A stretch of 64,000 bases of DNA from Candidatus Baltobacteraceae bacterium (GTDB taxonomy: Bacteria; Vulcanimicrobiota; Vulcanimicrobiia; Vulcanimicrobiales; Vulcanimicrobiaceae). The DNA lies in contig DASXGW010000012.1 in assembly GCA_036488875.1 (NCBI GenBank), forward strand, positions 124,001 to 188,000, given 5' to 3'. A program made the translations under genes and the position numbers. Under the pieces are notes generated by a model. That model saw only the letters and a list, made by a program, of their open reading frames with translations. It was not told the origin of the DNA and searched no databases. The number at the start of each line of letters is the position of its first letter. Within the stretch, counting starts at the first letter, position 1. Below are positions 31,230-39,063 of this stretch, in pieces.

Positions 31230-32171
31230 ATGTTGGCCTGCGCAGTGCTGGTTGCCGCCTTGAGTTTCTCGGCCACCCTGATTCCCGTCGCGGGCGACAC
31301 CAATCCGGATCTGCAAGGCATCGCGGTCGGACCGGACCGGGCGTTGTGGTTCGTCGAGTACGAGGCCGGCGCCATCGGGCGGGTCACGACCGACGGGAAA
31401 CTCACGGAGTTTCCGTTGCCGAAGGACCGATTCTTCGGCCTGCAGTCGATCGTGGCGGGTCCCGACGGTGCGTTATGGTTCACCGAGTACGTCGCCGGCG
31501 CGATCGGACGGATGACCACTAGCGGGAGCTATACGGAATACGCAATTCCCGACGATGCCGGCTCGGCTTCCCCGACCGGCATTGCCGTCGGCAGCGACGG
31601 TGCGCTGTGGTTCACGCAGTACGAGCGTAGCAAAATCGGGCGGATAAGCGTCGACGGTAAAATTGCCGAATATCCGATCGGCGCCGACGGCGAGCCGTAC
31701 GCGATTGCGCCGGGTTCCGACGGAGCCTTATGGTTTACCGAACGCCATCACGGCATCGGACGTATCGGTACCGATGGAAAGATCAGCGACTATCCCACCG
31801 GTTCGCTCGAGGCCCGCGACCGCGATCCTTTTGCGATCGCGGCCGGCCCCGACGGCGCGCTATGGTTTACCGATACGACCCTCGGCGAAATCGGCCGGAT
31901 TACGACGCACGGAGCGCGCACGTACTACACGGTCGGCGAACACTCGCCACCCGAAGCCATTACCGCCGGATCGGATGGTGCGCTGTGGTTTACGACGTAC
32001 GACGATCAAGAGTTTGGGCGCATCACGACCCACGGCGTCACGACTTTCTACTTACGCAAACGCCACGACGACATGCACGACAATCCGTTCGGACTCGCAA
32101 CCGGCCCCGATGGCGCGCTGTGGTTTACGCGCTATAACGATGCCGCGGTCTCCCGAGCGAGCATCCGCTAA
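31230..32171 (+). CDS. Secreted virginiamycin-B-lyase-like beta-propeller
   Basis: 313 residues with signal peptide MLACAVLVAALSFSATLIPVAG. About seven repeats of roughly 42 residues carry GPDGALWFTE, GSDGALWFTQ, GPDGALWFTD and similar cores, each followed by IGR(I/V)TTDG. This is the seven-bladed Vgb fold (streptogramin B lyase/NHL-like). True Vgb enzymes cleave the ester of streptogramin B; most relatives in soil bacteria are of unknown activity, so I do not claim resistance. The stop overlaps the convergent small gene by 4 bp. Confidence 0.83.
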   Translation: MLACAVLVAALSFSATLIPVAGDTNPDLQGIAVGPDRALWFVEYEAGAIGRVTTDGKLTEFPLPKDRFFGLQSIVAGPDGALWFTEYVAGAIGRMTTSGSYTEYAIPDDAGSASPTGIAVGSDGALWFTQYERSKIGRISVDGKIAEYPIGADGEPYAIAPGSDGALWFTERHHGIGRIGTDGKISDYPTGSLEARDRDPFAIAAGPDGALWFTDTTLGEIGRITTHGARTYYTVGEHSPPEAITAGSDGALWFTTYDDQEFGRITTHGVTTFYLRKRHDDMHDNPFGLATGPDGALWFTRYNDAAVSRASIR

Positions 32172-32514: not shown

Positions 32515-33258
32515 ATGATCGGCATCCTGTTGGCGGCAGTGATTATCCCCAATTTTAACGCAGACCGGGCCCTCGTGGTACTTGCTCGCGACGACGAGAC
32601 CGTGGCGGCCTGCACATCGGAGCGACCTGGTTCGCTGCGCCCGGAAAACGTGAAATTGACGCTCCTTTCCCGCGGCCCTGAGCTGGTCTTAGTGGAGATG
32701 TACGACGACACGTGCGTCTGCGGAGCGCACAACTGCCCGTTCTGGATCTACCGCGTGCGCGGAACCGAGGACCAGCGGCTTGCGACGTCGTGGGCCTACG
32801 ACGTAAGGGTCGTCCCGGCCGACGGCGGTGTGCCCGACGTCGTCGGAACCTCTCACGATAGCGCAGCCGTATCGGACGTCGTTCGGTTCGCCTACCGCAA
32901 CGGCACGTACGTGGAGGCCGAGTCGTGGAAGTTGCGAGGCGACGACCGCAAGCCGATCAGCGTTCCGGTGCGCTTCGCGCCGGGGACATCGAGCGCGCGA
33001 TTGCACGGCACGATCGGTCTCGGCTGGACCGACGACTACACCGTCGTCGCCGCCAAAGGGCAAACTTTGGAAGTCTCCGCGGTTGCGGGCAAACGGCCAA
33101 CGCTTATCCGGCTGATGGGTAACGACGTCAATCAAACGCTGACGCCGGGACGTTCCTTCATCCTGCCGGCAGCTGGCACGTACACGATCGACGTCGATCT
33201 CGGCTACACGGACGACGATCGCGACGCAGCCTACGCGTTTACCCTTTCGATCCGCTAA
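32515..33258 (+). CDS. Secreted protein of unknown function
   Basis: 247 residues from ATG 32515 (MIGILLAAVIIPNFNADR), with a short hydrophobic start that may be a signal peptide. A Cys-containing segment (MYDDTCVCGAHNCPFWIYRV) resembles a small disulfide-rich or metal-binding loop. The C-terminal half (SSARLHGTIGLGWTDDYTVVAAKGQTLEVSAVAGKRPT, then LPAAGTYTIDVDLGYTDD) looks like a beta-sandwich of the pre-peptidase C-terminal kind. I recognise no family for the whole. Its end overlaps the end of senB by 20 bp, convergently. Confidence 0.65.
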   Translation: MIGILLAAVIIPNFNADRALVVLARDDETVAACTSERPGSLRPENVKLTLLSRGPELVLVEMYDDTCVCGAHNCPFWIYRVRGTEDQRLATSWAYDVRVVPADGGVPDVVGTSHDSAAVSDVVRFAYRNGTYVEAESWKLRGDDRKPISVPVRFAPGTSSARLHGTIGLGWTDDYTVVAAKGQTLEVSAVAGKRPTLIRLMGNDVNQTLTPGRSFILPAAGTYTIDVDLGYTDDDRDAAYAFTLSIR

Positions 33259-34321
33259 CCCCGCGGGACGCTAACGCAATGGCGCGCGCGAGCCCCGCTC
33301 GCTCGCTACCGAGCTTCACCTTTGGCGCCAGTGCACGAATCTGCCGCCGCAGCAGCCGCGCAAAACGCGGATCGTTCACGAAACGGTCAATGAGCGCCGC
33401 GAGCGCCGCACTCGATCCGACCGCATAATAGCCGGCATACCCGGGTCCGAACACACCGGCGTTTCCGTCGATGCGCGAAGCGAGCACCGGAACGCCGTTG
33501 GCGATCGCCTCGCTTGCGACGTTGGCGCCACCCTCCGAGCGCGACGAAAGCACGAGCGCGTCGCAACCCGCGAGCAGACGCAGCGCGCGCGATCGTGAAA
33601 CTTCACCGAGGTAACGATAGCGCGGATCGCGCGCCTCTACCGCTTTGACGCGCGCCGCGTAGTGGGAATCGAGCGTGCCGCCGGCCTGCCGCACTTCGAC
33701 GTCGACACCTTCGAGATAGCGTAATGCATAAGCGGCCCGCAGCGGATCCTTCTCGCGACGCAAATGACCGAGCACGCAGAGGCGCGCCGGTCGCCCTTTT
33801 ACGCTTCTTCGTCTGACGCTCGCGCGCTGCGCCGACTGTACCACCGCGATCGCGCGTTTTCGCAGCCGTTTGGGAAGCCGCTCGATGGCCAGCGGCTGCA
33901 GCGTGACGATGGCGTTGGCAGCCTCGAGTGCGCGCATCGCCCGCCGGCCGTGCGGAAGCTTCCCGTATACGTCGGTCCCGGTCAGTACGACGACGATTGG
34001 GCGATCCGGGAAGCGCTTGCGAAAGGCAGCAACGAACGGCGCGCTCTTATCCGCGTGCAAAGCAACCAGGATGCCGGCATCGGGGACCGCTTGCGATGAC
34101 GCCGCAATGCGCGTCTTGTATCCCAACGAACGCAATATGCGGGAATACCGCTGCGCGGTGACGGAATTGCCGGACCGAGAACTGGGACTTGTGGGAGATG
34201 CGATGACGACCGACGTAACGGTCCCGCCCGCGGAAGCGCTGCTCGACGCGCGCGCGCGAACGCTCGCGCTCGTCGACGACTTGCGCGACGATCTCCTGCT
34301 CGTGCCGATGCTCGATACCAT
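33239..34321 (-). CDS. senB: Selenosugar synthase SenB (TIGR04348-type glycosyltransferase)
   Basis: The conserved protein begins near VVIASPTSPSSRSGNSVTAQRYSRILRSLGY (about 34216) and ends at residue LASRGVSGSKG. It has the SenB hallmarks: a GNSVTA N-terminus, LTGTDVYGKLP, LCVLGHLRREKDPLRAAYALR, and VLSSRSEGGANVASEAIANGVPVLASRI. SenB joins selenophosphate to a UDP-sugar to give a selenosugar, the selenium donor for selenoneine (known from Variovorax). No ATG, GTG or TTG lies at the expected N-terminus; the nearest standard in-frame start upstream is ATG 34321, given here, which would overlap the start of senA by 119 bp. The true start is therefore open. It is divergent from senA. Confidence 0.85.
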   Translation of the reverse strand: MVSSIGTSRRSSRKSSTSASVRARASSSASAGGTVTSVVIASPTSPSSRSGNSVTAQRYSRILRSLGYKTRIAASSQAVPDAGILVALHADKSAPFVAAFRKRFPDRPIVVVLTGTDVYGKLPHGRRAMRALEAANAIVTLQPLAIERLPKRLRKRAIAVVQSAQRASVRRRSVKGRPARLCVLGHLRREKDPLRAAYALRYLEGVDVEVRQAGGTLDSHYAARVKAVEARDPRYRYLGEVSRSRALRLLAGCDALVLSSRSEGGANVASEAIANGVPVLASRIDGNAGVFGPGYAGYYAVGSSAALAALIDRFVNDPRFARLLRRQIRALAPKVKLGSERAGLARAIALASRGVSGSKG

Positions 34322-35459
34322 CAACCCCATTTTGTGGGAAATCGGGCACGTCGCCTCTTTTACCGAGTTCTGGACGCTGCGCCACTTGCACGGTCGCGAT
34401 CCCATGATCGCCGGTGCCGACAAACTCTACGATTCGGCGAAGGTCGCGCACGACGCACGCTGGTCGCTGCCGTTACCGTCGCGCGCTCGAACGATGGACT
34501 TCATGGCGCGCCAACTCGACGACACGCTCAATCATCCGTGCGACGACGCGCGGGCCGGATACTTCAACACGTTATCTTTATTGCACGAAGACATGCACGA
34601 CGAGGCGCTCATCTACACGCGTCACATCCTTTCGTACCCGCAACCGCAGTTCGGCTTCGCGCCGCTTCCTCACAGCGCCGAACGGATCGAAGGCGACGCG
34701 CACGTGCCCGCCGGCAACTACACGATCGGCGCGCGACCGGGTGACGGTTTCATCTTCGATAACGAGAAGTGGGCGCACGAAGTTTACGTCGACTCCTTTT
34801 CTATCGCAAAGCGCACCGTAACCAACGCCGAGTTCGCCGCCTTCGTCGAAGCCGGAGGATACGCGCGCGACGACCTGTGGAGCCACGAAGGTTTAGCGTG
34901 GCGCAACCAAGCGCGGGCGCAACATCCGGCGTACTGGCGCGAAAACGGCGGCCTGTGGGAACGCCGGCAGTTCGATCGCTACGTTGCGCTGCGCGAGCGC
35001 GAACCGGTCGTCAACGTCAACGCGTTCGAGGCGGAGGCGTATTGCAAATGGGCCGGTCGCCGCTTGCCAACCGAAGCGGAGTGGGAAGCGGCGGCATCGG
35101 GGCCCGCGCACCTTCGCTTTCCGTGGGGTGACACGTCATGGACGCCGGAGCGCGCCAACCTCGACGCGCACTACGGCGGCGTCTGTGAGGTCGACGCCTT
35201 CGCGAGTTCGGCCGGCCCGTTCGGCTGCGTTCAAATGATAGGCAACGTCTGGGAATGGACCGCGACTACGTTTCTCCCCTACCCAGGCTTCTCGCCGGAT
35301 TCTTATAAGGAATATTCAGAGCCCTGGTTTGCCACGCACCGGTCGCTGCGGGGTGGCGCGTGGTCGACGCGGGCTCGCATGGTGTCCAACCGCTGGCGCA
35401 ACTTTTATCGCCCGCAACGCGTCGACATTATCACGGGTTTTCGCACCTGCGCTCGCTAG
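34203..35459 (+). CDS. senA: Selenoneine synthase SenA (EgtB-like, DinB + FGE-sulfatase domains)
   Basis: 418 residues from ATG 34203 with GGGAG (34193-34197). Residues about 5-150 are the DinB-like domain with iron ligands in IGHVASFTEFW (His) and LHEDMHDEAL (HxxxH). Residues about 165-418 are the formylglycine-generating-enzyme-like domain (VNAFEAEAYCKWAGRRLPTEAEWEAAA, WTATTFLPYPGF, RSLRGGAWSTR). The HEDMHDEA and YTRHIL segments are nearer to SenA than to EgtB. SenA is a non-haem iron enzyme that joins hercynine to the SenB selenosugar. Hercynine needs EgtD, which is not in the window. It is the first gene of an apparent operon with the permease and selD. Confidence 0.85.
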   Translation: MTTDVTVPPAEALLDARARTLALVDDLRDDLLLVPMLDTINPILWEIGHVASFTEFWTLRHLHGRDPMIAGADKLYDSAKVAHDARWSLPLPSRARTMDFMARQLDDTLNHPCDDARAGYFNTLSLLHEDMHDEALIYTRHILSYPQPQFGFAPLPHSAERIEGDAHVPAGNYTIGARPGDGFIFDNEKWAHEVYVDSFSIAKRTVTNAEFAAFVEAGGYARDDLWSHEGLAWRNQARAQHPAYWRENGGLWERRQFDRYVALREREPVVNVNAFEAEAYCKWAGRRLPTEAEWEAAASGPAHLRFPWGDTSWTPERANLDAHYGGVCEVDAFASSAGPFGCVQMIGNVWEWTATTFLPYPGFSPDSYKEYSEPWFATHRSLRGGAWSTRARMVSNRWRNFYRPQRVDIITGFRTCAR

Positions 35460-35478
35460 CCTAACGAAGGAGGTACCG

Positions 35479-36558
35479 GTGTCCGTTCGAGAGATCGAAG
35501 GCAAACGCACGACCGACTCGGGCTTGCTCTACGGAACTTTGGCGTTCCTGGCTATGGCCGTCATCGGCCTCTTCATCGTCAAGTGGTTTCCGTATTGGAA
35601 TAAGGCGCACGTAGCGGCCGCAACGCACGCCATCGGGTCGTCGATCGTCAGCGGCAAGAGTATCGCGCCTCCCGCCGCCGGGCTCGCCGCGGCGTGGCAG
35701 TACACCGTCGCCTACTTCAACTCCGTATGGATGGCCGTCGTCCTCGCACTACTGCTCGGAAGCAGCGTTCAAATCTTCGTTCCGCGCCGCTGGCTGCTGC
35801 GCATGCTGGGTGCGCGAAACGCGAAGTCCGCCGCGATCGCCGGAGCGCTCTCGCTCGGCGGGATGATGTGAACCTGCTGCACCGGGCCGGTGGTCATCGG
35901 CCTTCGCAAACAGCATGCCGCCGTCGGCAGCGGGCTTGCCTTCTTCCTCGGCAATCCGGTTCTCAATCCGGCCACGCTCGTCTTCATGGGCTTCATCCTG
36001 GGCTGGCAGTTCAGCGCGATTCGCCTGGTCGTGGGCCTGCTGCTCATCGCGATCGTGGTTGCTATCGCCAACCGAATGACGACCGACGAAGCGTCCGGCG
36101 AAGCGCCGGCACCCGAACTCGCTGCGATCGAGCGCCCCGACCGATCGTTTGGAACGCTGGCTATCGCCTGGCTCAAGGAACTCTGGAACGAGATCGTCGC
36201 CATCATACCGGGCTACGTGCTGATCGTCTTCATTCTTGGTGGATTGCGCGCGTGGTTCTTTCCGCCGGATTTTACCATTCACGCCTCGGGCGTCGCCGGA
36301 ATGACGCTCGTATCGCTGGTCGGAACGTTGTTCGTGATTCCGACGGCGGGCGAGGTGCCGATCGTGCAAACGCTGCTCGCACACGGAATGAGCATCGGCG
36401 CCGCCGTGGCGCTCATCATCACGCTTCCCGCGATCAGCTTGCCGTCGCTCTTCATCGTCCGCAAGGCGTTTCCGGCCAATGTGCTGGCGATGACGTTCGG
36501 CGTGATCTTCGCCGGCGGGTTGATCGCCGGAACCATCGCCCAGCTCGTCGACCGCTAA
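35479..36558 (+). CDS. Selenocysteine-containing ArsP/DUF318-like permease (UGA readthrough at 35869-35871)
   Basis: 359 residues including one selenocysteine, from GTG 35479 behind AAGGAGG (35467-35473). One frame runs through, broken only by TGA 35869-35871 (residue 131). It reads GGMM-U-TCCTGPVVIGLRK, then GLAFFLGNPVLNPATLVFMGFILGW. Cysteine relatives, as I recall, read CTCC here, so UGA replaces the first Cys of a CxCC motif. About eight to nine membrane segments form two halves joined by a cytoplasmic loop (about 205-230). A hairpin with loop UGGUCA starts 12 nt after the UGA, as in E. coli fdhF. ArsP-type permeases move thiol-reactive metalloid compounds. It lies 19 bp after senA and 13 bp before selD, so a selenium-related role is likely. 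A pseudogene or assembly error is the alternative but fits poorly. Confidence 0.85.
35869..35903 (+). promoter_or_regulatory. Sec codon and bacterial SECIS hairpin of the permease
   Basis: UGA at 35869-35871, then a 7-bp stem, GGGCCGG (35884-35890) with TCGGCCT (35897-35903), including two G-U pairs. The six-base loop is TGGTCA (35891-35896). The loop core GGUC is the one that binds SelB in E. coli fdhF, and the distance from UGA to loop (19 nt) is nearly the same. Confidence 0.75.
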
Positions 36559-36571
36559 GGCGTCTTAGTTC

Positions 36572-37621
36572 GTGACGAAAGCAGACATCACGAGGCTAAC
36601 GCACCTCAGCGACTGCGCGGGTTGAGCGTCGAAAGTAGACGCTAGCGTCCTCGCGCAGGTCCTGCGCGGGCTGCCTCCGATCTCGGATCCCAACGTCATC
36701 GTCGGAAACGCGAGCGCCGACGATGCTGCGGTGTATCGCTTGGACGACCAGCGCGCTCTCGTCGTCACGGTGGATTTCTTCACGCCGATCGTTGACGACC
36801 CGTATGATTACGGCCGCATCGCCGCGGCGAACTCGCTGTCCGACGTCTACGCGATGGGAGCGCGGCCGCTATGCGCGCTCGCGATTGCGGCATTTCCGGA
36901 AGACCTCGATCCCAGCGTCATCGCAGCGATTTTACGCGGCGGTATCGACGTCGCCGCATCGGCCGGAATCGCGATCGTCGGCGGTCACACGATCAAAGAC
37001 GCCGAACCGAAGTACGGACTCTCCGTCACGGGCATCGTTCATCCCGATCGGGTTTTGCGTAACGATACCGGACGTGCCGGCAACGCGCTGATTCTTACCA
37101 AACCGCTGGGTACCGGCATCGTTACGACCGCGCGCCGCAGCGACGTCGTCGACGACACCGCGCTTGCTCCGGCGGTCGAGTCAATGGTGACGCTCAATCG
37201 CGCGGCGAGCGAAATCGCGCTGCCGTTCGAGATTACGGCGATGACCGACGTCACGGGCTTTGGGCTGATCGGACATCTGCGCGAAATGCTCGGCGGCCGG
37301 CTGGGCGCGCGGATCGACGGCGCGTCGGTTCCGCTGCTGCCGCACGCCCTGAGTTTGGCCGCGCGCGACGTCATGCCGGGCGGCACGCGCAAAAACTTCG
37401 CCGCAGCGCTAGAAAACGGCGCTCGTTTCGGCGCCCGGCTGCCCGCCGGACTCGCGACCGTTCTGTGCGACGCGCAGACGTCGGGCGGTCTGCTGATCGC
37501 CGTCGACGGCTCGCAGGCTCAAGCATTGCTCGATGCTTTGCGCGCAGGCGGAGTGCGGGACGCGTCCATCATCGGCAGCCTTACCGATTCCGGGTCGATC
37601 GACGTTACATGGGCCGCTTGA
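36572..37621 (+). CDS. selD: Selenide, water dikinase SelD with selenocysteine in the active site (UGA at 36623-36625)
   Basis: 349 residues including Sec at position 18, from GTG 36572; E. coli SelD has 347. The frame reads DITRLTHLSDCAG-U-ASKVDASVLAQVL, aligning Sec with the catalytic Cys17 of E. coli (GAGCGCK) and Lys with its Lys20. The rest is canonical: NASADDAAVYRL, AAANSLSDVYAMGARPLCALAI, VGGHTIKDAEPKYGLSVTGIV, TDVTGFGLIGHLREM and TSGGLLIAV. SelD makes selenophosphate from selenide and ATP, the selenium donor for Sec-tRNA and for SenB. Sec-containing SelD is known in many bacteria. The DUF/permease gene ends 13 bp upstream. The end overlaps the convergent flavoprotein gene by 17 bp. 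Confidence 0.92.
36652..36668 (+). promoter_or_regulatory. Bacterial SECIS hairpin of selD
   Basis: CGCGCA (36652-36657), loop GGTCC (36658-36662), TGCGCG (36663-36668): a perfect 6-bp stem. Its top GCAGGUCCUGC is almost identical to GCAGGUCUGC of E. coli fdhF. The loop begins 33 nt after the UGA, within the range reported for bacterial SECIS. A palindrome GACGCTAGCGTC lies between UGA and the hairpin and could stack below it. Confidence 0.75.
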
Positions 37622-38972
37622 TCGACGACTCGAACATTCGCGCGAGGGTCGGTAAGCCCTCACAATACGTCGGGTGGATGTGCACCGAATCGTCGAGCGT
37701 CTTCCACGTCGAGCCGGCTTGCATGTGCGCGATAAAGACGTGCACGATCTCCGAGGCTTCATAGCCGACGAGGCTCGCGCCGACGATCTTATCGGTCGCT
37801 TCGTCGACGACCATCCGATAAAATCCGCGCTCTTCACCCCATTCGATAGCGCGTGCGACGTCGCTCAGCGGTATCTCCTCCCGCCGGGCACGGATGCCTT
37901 TCTTGATCGCTTGATCGTAGGTGAGGCCGGCGCGACCAACTTGCGGCTCGGTGAAGACCGCGTATCCCAGAACGCGGTCGCTGCGCGTGCGTTTTCCGCC
38001 GGCAATGATATCGACCATCCGGCGATAGTCTTCCCACGACACGTGGGTAAATGCCGGCTGGCCGCTGACGTCGCCGATGGCGTACACGCCCTTGCAAGAC
38101 GTATGGAACTGCTCGTCTATATTGACGTATCCGCGGGAATCTAACGCGATGCCCCCTCGCTGGCAGTCGAGCGCGGCGGTGTTCGGCGTTCGACCGGTCG
38201 CGACGAGAAACCGATCGCCCTCGAAGCGCTTACCGCCGGCGAGCTCGACCGTAAAGACGCCGTCCTTGAACGTCACGCTCGACACCGCAGCGTTGAGCTG
38301 CAGATCGATACCGTCAGCGTGTAGCGACTCTTCCAAGCACGCACTGACGTCGCTTTCTTCATTGTTGAGCACGCGATCGCCGTTGTGAAGAATCGTGACC
38401 TTGCTGCCTACGCGCGCCATGCCTTGCCCGAGCTCCAGACCGATGTATCCGCCGCCGAGCACGAGAAAACGCTTTGGAAGCTCCGTCTGGCCAAAGAAGC
38501 TCACGTTGGTCAGATATGGGGTATCCGCGAGGCCCGTGACGTTAGGGATGGCAGCTGAAGTTCCGGTGTTGATCACGATCAGCGGCGCGGTCACTTCGAC
38601 GTCGCCGCCCTTGACCGTGCGTTGCGCGGTGAAGGCTGCCTCGGCGTGCACGATTTCCACGCCGGCATCGGACAGTTTCTTTTTGATCTCGTCACGGAAG
38701 GACTGCCGGATATCGCGCAAGCGGTTCATGACGAACGGAAAGTCGACGCTGACGGTCGCGTGTACGCCGAGATTCTTTGCGCGGCGCGCTCGCCCGGCAT
38801 TGTGTGCCGCGGCCAGAAACGATTTAGACGGCGTGCATCCGTAGTTGATGCAGCTCCCGCCCAGTTCGTCGCGCTCGAAAAGCAGCACGTGCCGGCCGCC
38901 CTTGGCGAGCTCGACCGCAAGCGGAACTCCGCCTTGCCCGCTGCCGATAACGATCGCATCCGCTTTTTTCAT
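37605..38972 (-). CDS. Mercuric-reductase-like FAD/NAD(P) disulfide oxidoreductase
   Basis: 455 residues from ATG 38972 (MKKADAIVIGSGQGGVPLAVELAKGG, the FAD-binding GxGxxG). The redox-active disulfide is GGSCINYGCTPSK. The NAD(P)-binding site is LVLGGGYIGLELGQGMARVGSKV, the second FAD motif is GVYAIGDVSGQPAF, and the C-terminal dimer interface has HIHPTYCEGLPTLA with the His-xxxx-Glu pair. It lacks the N-terminal HMA domain and the C-terminal Cys pair of true MerA. Such MerA-like proteins reduce unknown disulfides or metals. Its position at the end of the selenium operon, convergent with selD, makes a role in selenium or thiol redox possible but unproven. Confidence 0.85.
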   Translation of the reverse strand: MKKADAIVIGSGQGGVPLAVELAKGGRHVLLFERDELGGSCINYGCTPSKSFLAAAHNAGRARRAKNLGVHATVSVDFPFVMNRLRDIRQSFRDEIKKKLSDAGVEIVHAEAAFTAQRTVKGGDVEVTAPLIVINTGTSAAIPNVTGLADTPYLTNVSFFGQTELPKRFLVLGGGYIGLELGQGMARVGSKVTILHNGDRVLNNEESDVSACLEESLHADGIDLQLNAAVSSVTFKDGVFTVELAGGKRFEGDRFLVATGRTPNTAALDCQRGGIALDSRGYVNIDEQFHTSCKGVYAIGDVSGQPAFTHVSWEDYRRMVDIIAGGKRTRSDRVLGYAVFTEPQVGRAGLTYDQAIKKGIRARREEIPLSDVARAIEWGEERGFYRMVVDEATDKIVGASLVGYEASEIVHVFIAHMQAGSTWKTLDDSVHIHPTYCEGLPTLARMFESSIKRPM

Positions 38973-39063
38973 ACAAGAATAATACCTCAACCCACGCTTG
39001 CTTGGCCTCCCGGAGCCGAATCGTCGAAGGCGCCGCGCCCCCTGCTTAGGAAGACTTCATACG

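Follow-up and report, generated by a model that had tools for sequence, protein, structure and literature searches.

Comparison of homologous loci indicates that a YraQ-type (ArsP_1/PF03773) permease gene of Candidatus Baltobacteraceae bacterium is almost certainly a genuine selenoprotein gene, in which UGA131 is predicted to be decoded as selenocysteine (Sec). The gene (positions 35479-36558, forward strand) lies in a window of 64,000 nucleotides, the whole stretch of DNA analysed here (GCA_036488875.1, contig DASXGW010000012.1, 124,001-188,000, forward strand). Preceded by a ribosome-binding site AGGAGG (35468-35473, forward strand), it starts with GTG, ends with TAA and encodes 359 amino acids including Sec131. 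The initial annotation had described one permease frame broken only by a TGA, and its coordinates were exact: the TGA at 35869-35871 (forward strand), within the motif GMM-U-TCC, is the sole interruption between GTG and TAA. With the TGA translated as Cys, the Pfam match to ArsP_1 runs through it (E = 2.2e-32, residues 76-355), and the PF03773 score of 112.8 bits exceeds the gathering threshold of 32.3. The codon pattern of purifying selection and the amino acid identity are alike upstream and downstream of the TGA, hence the region 3' of it is under the same protein-level selection as the 5' part.

Among 103 genomes searched in the order, a close homologue was found in 22, with exactly one in-frame TGA in 12, and a phylum-wide search added one further Cys form. 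Every TGA codon aligns to the one column in GMM-U-TCC, where the remaining Eremiobacterota orthologues have TGC or TGT. The permease is also present in 5 of 43 genomes of the phylum of L069, a metagenome-assembled genome (MAG) titled Bacillota; in this second phylum the TGA was found in three of the five permease genomes, two of which carry a second, Cys, copy. Counting each genome once, the same codon is thus TGA in 15 genomes, 12 of them Eremiobacterota and 3 from the second phylum. The other close orthologues examined (more than 60) have Cys at the site, never another residue; when 84,980 species genomes were scanned, each of the 80 loci obtained, L069 among them, had either Cys or TGA there. 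In the phylum of Clostridium carboxidivorans (398 genomes), the family was found in 13 genomes and the TGA in none. The permease therefore shows the mark of a selenoprotein, a UGA where homologues have Cys, and a read error is very improbable given that the TGA recurs across many genomes assembled independently of one another. The initial interpretation of a Sec-containing PF03773 permease is supported: the first Cys of the motif in Cys homologues aligns with U131, related genomes have UGA at the same site, and neither a stop codon nor an unrelated residue, which would have spoken against it, was seen in the relatives. Its placement of the UGA at a conserved Cys held, but no actinobacterial relative of the kind it had named was seen; the close relatives found were YraQ-type permeases of Eremiobacterota, Bacillota-titled MAGs, Burkholderiales and Enterobacterales.

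A bacterial SECIS-like hairpin, GGGCCGGT-GGTC-ATCGGCCT (35884-35903, forward strand), begins 12 nt after the UGA. The hairpin had been noted at this place with 7 bp; it is present, and is best read as 8 bp, with an additional closing U-A pair, and the loop GGUC. With 20 nt from UGA to loop and -11.7 kcal/mol, it falls within all limits of the bacterial SECIS (bSECIS) model, namely a stem of 4-16 bp, a loop of 3-9 nt with G in the first two loop positions, a distance of 16-37 nt from the UGA and an MFE <= -7.5 (PMC13188914). Synonymous recoding gives an equally good stem in 12% of cases for the window sequence, 9.5% for L033 and 2.3% for L157, so the hairpin of a single sequence is weak evidence; chance is excluded by conservation, that is, by the same TGA in both phyla and by synonymous codons. 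In representative Sec forms, synonymous-codon identity over the 11 codons from UGA to +10 was 92% versus 47% elsewhere, ranking first of 337 codon windows; in the Cys forms, codon conservation in the codon window that begins at +3 is about the 91st highest of 373. A perfect stem of at least 8 bp with a loop GGC, GGU or GGUC 20 nt after the UGA was found in 13 of 14 folded TGA sequences. Between the phyla the stem stays paired through one double change from G-C to C-G and another from U-A to C-G, both in the same codon register, and the covariation score of the stem exceeded all 500 shuffles and all slid controls, where the shuffles ignore relatedness and both double changes, common to two related sequences, count as one event each. 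The TGA of L161 (G190) is not followed by a hairpin meeting the simple bSECIS model, and this genome might have either a variant SECIS or a relaxed case. In L161 and L166 (G190) the TGA is at the same codon, senA and senB are adjacent and the branch is long. The Rfam scan of the 64-kb window gave no match at threshold.

The genes selA, selB and tRNA-Sec (78 bits versus a threshold of 47), whose lack would have spoken against the initial interpretation, were all found in the host genome, which with selD holds the set required for Sec synthesis and insertion. Moreover, selA was found in each of the other Sec-form Eremiobacterota genomes as well as in G149, and tRNA-Sec in 3/3 Sec-form genomes of the second phylum. 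The Cys-form Eremiobacterota also keep selA and a Sec-containing SelD, thus Sec is not essential for permease function; the only one of these Cys-form genomes without selA, G088 (84% complete), has no tRNA-Sec above threshold either. At least five changes between Sec and Cys are required on a tree of the 54 YraQ-type rows, an approximate figure given the open forks of this quick tree, and the Sec form of the window is nested with a Cys genus. This nesting, together with the retained Sec machinery of the Cys forms, shows that Sec and Cys have been exchanged without loss of the Sec system. Table 11 reads TGA as stop and downstream GTG starts exist, so the UGA might be a real stop in a pseudogene or split gene, yet we regard this as very improbable in the face of a TGA shared by 15 genomes, conservation and a codon-position pattern unchanged after it, Cys in all other orthologues and the Sec machinery of the host. 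A single in-frame TGA would look alike if this lineage had reassigned the codon to tryptophan or used a suppressor to read it, but the adjacent selD ends in TGA, the relatives have Cys rather than Trp and tRNA-Sec is present, leaving reassignment with hardly any probability.

The position of the gene between senA and selD was likewise confirmed by profile searches. The selenoneine synthase gene senA (34203-35459, forward strand) scored 475 bits with NF041186 (cut-off 420) and the selenophosphate synthetase gene selD/senC (36572-37621, forward strand) 376 bits with TIGR00476 (cut-off 125). The selenosugar synthase gene senB (33239-34210, reverse strand), divergent from senA and with an uncertain 5' end, was marginal with TIGR04348 (299.1 bits versus a cut-off of 300); with this proviso senA, senB and selD/senC stand together as a selenoneine cluster. 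The selD gene is itself a selenoprotein gene, with an in-frame TGA at 36623-36625 (SDCAGUASK), a 9-bp hairpin with loop GTC and a terminal TGA as normal stop, so that selenoproteins account for two of the four genes of the cluster. SelD was in the selenoprotein form in every examined Eremiobacterota locus having selD, and two selenoprotein genes are thus adjacent within the sen cluster.

Neighbouring genes in relatives were located by targeted tblastn, longest-ORF clustering being dropped because of antisense ORFs in GC-rich DNA. In 14 of the 15 Sec-form loci (the window, 10/11 and 3/3), sen genes or selD were located no more than 4.5 kb away; the exception is on a contig that stops at the gene. 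Of the 11 Eremiobacterota Cys forms, 9 have such neighbours within this distance too. Among proteobacterial Cys loci, the permease is directly behind mnmH, encoding selenouridine synthase, in 45 of 52 (18 of them as selD-mnmH-permease), many being close relatives and therefore far fewer than 45 independent cases; it is the Burkholderiales Cys relatives that have the permease in this place behind mnmH. Genomes G149 and G188 hold both forms, the Sec copy adjoining senA and the Cys copy located elsewhere. No adjacent selenium genes were seen for the Cys copies of the second phylum, Bacillota and Enterobacterales (yraQ), and such copies away from selenium genes suggest that the substrate of the family may be broader.

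The permease belongs to the YraQ-type subfamily by near full-length similarity and the M-C-x-C-C motif. The nearest known protein is the enterobacterial YraQ (UPF0718), 44-46% identical in an alignment that covers 92-93% of the protein and with a GMMC(T/S)CC motif; however, it has Cys instead of Sec and no selenium gene neighbours, the yraQ locus of Enterobacterales adjoining dolP, diaA and yraN. In the initial annotation the family was not known as a described selenoprotein. This holds for the YraQ type, whose Sec form was found neither in the papers searched nor in NCBIfam, but not for PF03773 as a whole: a Sec form of the SO_0444 family Cu/Zn efflux transporter (NF033936, UxC, WP_014809615.1), annotated in GenBank, is included in the 2026 catalogue of prokaryotic selenoproteins (PMC13188914). 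In a profile alignment made with Cys members of that family rather than WP_014809615.1, the first Cys of its CSC aligns exactly on Sec131, which together with the catalogued form gives Sec at this PF03773 site a precedent. SO_0444 is nevertheless a distant subfamily (50.3 bits versus the NF033936 cut-off of 300), and no selenium gene cluster is mentioned in the catalogue for its Sec form (PMC13188914). The best NCBIfam match was SaoE (NF040736), the permease of the selenoprotein-rich Sec-assisted organometallic (SAO) system, but at 79.5 bits versus a cut-off of 325, and SaoE itself is absent as a selenoprotein from the catalogue (PMC13188914). YeeE/YedE and SAO components are among the transport selenoproteins listed there (PMC13188914). 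YeeE/YedE (PF04143) resembles the permease as a candidate selenium transporter with ties to selD-type genes, a Sec form (GUxSG) and, among its sulfur-related homologues, a Cys that never varies (PMC5322559, PMC13188914), but is a separate Pfam family. It adjoins a YraQ-type permease on plasmid pMP1046A of Ligilactobacillus salivarius (L155), where TusA, rhodanese and D-proline reductase genes are also nearby.

An AlphaFold2 model built with 37 sequences (pLDDT 84.6, pTM 0.86), replacing one with 16 sequences that was too weak (pLDDT 66.6), placed residue 131 at a break between helices 115-128 and 132-144; the second half of the model mirrors this break at 285-291 (FVIPTAG). Foldseek comparison with the PDB gave no match with E below 0.001, the best hits, too weak to use, being TRAP 8y4w, CNT and sodium/dicarboxylate carriers, with a hint of an elevator-type fold. 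The PDB sequence search returned nothing beyond weak hits on copper ATPase domains, located around the CxC motif (best E 0.012). The model is compatible with direct contact of Sec and two Cys at the broken helix with a soft substrate.

From the gene context, which like the UGA-decoding signals and the conservation of the site is established by comparison, we infer that the permease quite likely handles a selenium species and, given a selenium substrate, import is somewhat favoured over export. We propose that UGA131 is decoded as Sec and that the Sec permease probably moves reduced or thiol-bound selenium species for SelD. SelB with tRNA-Sec would read UGA131 as selenocysteine, aided by the hairpin that follows closely. 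This Sec, a Cys in most relatives, and the next two cysteines (U-T-C-C) would lie where a discontinuous membrane helix breaks, the usual substrate-binding place of such transporters, and Sec131 may touch the substrate. The candidate cargo would be selenide, a selenotrisulfide or similar, carried across the inner membrane for SelD, the source of selenophosphate for selenoneine (senA/senB) and for Sec.

Two other roles for a true Sec permease have to be weighed against this supply of SelD, both of them unlikely in our estimation. The protein might pump out organoarsenicals or soft metals in the manner of ArsP, SO_0444 or SaoE, and stay near selenium genes for the sole reason that Sec supply and soft-metal stress coincide. 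It shares the Pfam family and the CxC site with SO_0444, its closest HMMs (SaoE and SO_0444) carry efflux names, and a gene for a MerA/RclA-like FAD oxidoreductase follows selD; both matches are, however, far below cut-off, the genes associated with the permease in separate lineages, Cys forms included, are selD, senA, senB and mnmH, and the Burkholderiales neighbour is a tRNA selenouridine enzyme. Alternatively, a Sec-containing exporter could remove excess selenide or methylated selenium, or carry selenoneine out of the cell. Characterised PF03773 members such as ArsP are exporters, and this role, like the sen cluster neighbours in two phyla, speaks for export, but selenoneine export leaves the selD-mnmH-permease operons without senA unexplained. 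A selenium species used by SelD is preferred over selenoneine export because the selenoneine and selenouridine pathways share the selenide/selenophosphate supply.

According to two reviews, prokaryotes have no known specific system of high affinity for selenium transport (PMC13188914, PMC9312934), and of five candidate loci deleted in Methanococcus none proved to be required (PMC11097638). The YraQ-type permease is a concrete conserved candidate for a selenium transporter, with homologues in E. coli (yraQ) and Paraburkholderia. Tentatively, permeases of this type might be the missing dedicated bacterial selenium transporters feeding SelD for selenoneine, Sec and selenouridine, with Sec at the substrate site in two phyla; if so, synthesis of the transporter would itself depend on the selenium it handles. 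A term search of the 2026 catalogue found no YraQ-type or selenoneine-linked permease (PMC13188914), and neither the papers searched nor NCBIfam yielded a YraQ-type Sec form or its association with a selenium cluster, although an earlier mention elsewhere is possible. As far as these sources show, the YraQ-type subfamily, its set of Sec and Cys forms in two phyla, the covariation of the SECIS and the link to selenium clusters are new, adding one more selenoprotein subfamily with natural Sec/Cys pairs.

Several further features of the loci were observed. The predicted starts of the divergent senB and senA nearly coincide or overlap (33239-34213), and an ordinary start codon of senB is not obvious just before the conserved IASPTSP. 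The FAD oxidoreductase gene of the MerA/RclA group (37605-38990), convergent with selD, possibly belongs to the selenium locus. The streptogramin B lyase-like (Vgb-like) gene at 31230-32171 scored 218 bits versus a curated cut-off of 600 and probably encodes another beta-propeller protein. In one relative, L148 (G064:C9:242914-244846), the Sec permease breaks off directly behind U-TCCTGPL, within the SECIS hairpin; the two matching parts, residues 8-139 and 304-354, are about 1.4 kb apart, reflecting an insertion, a rearrangement or an assembly fault.
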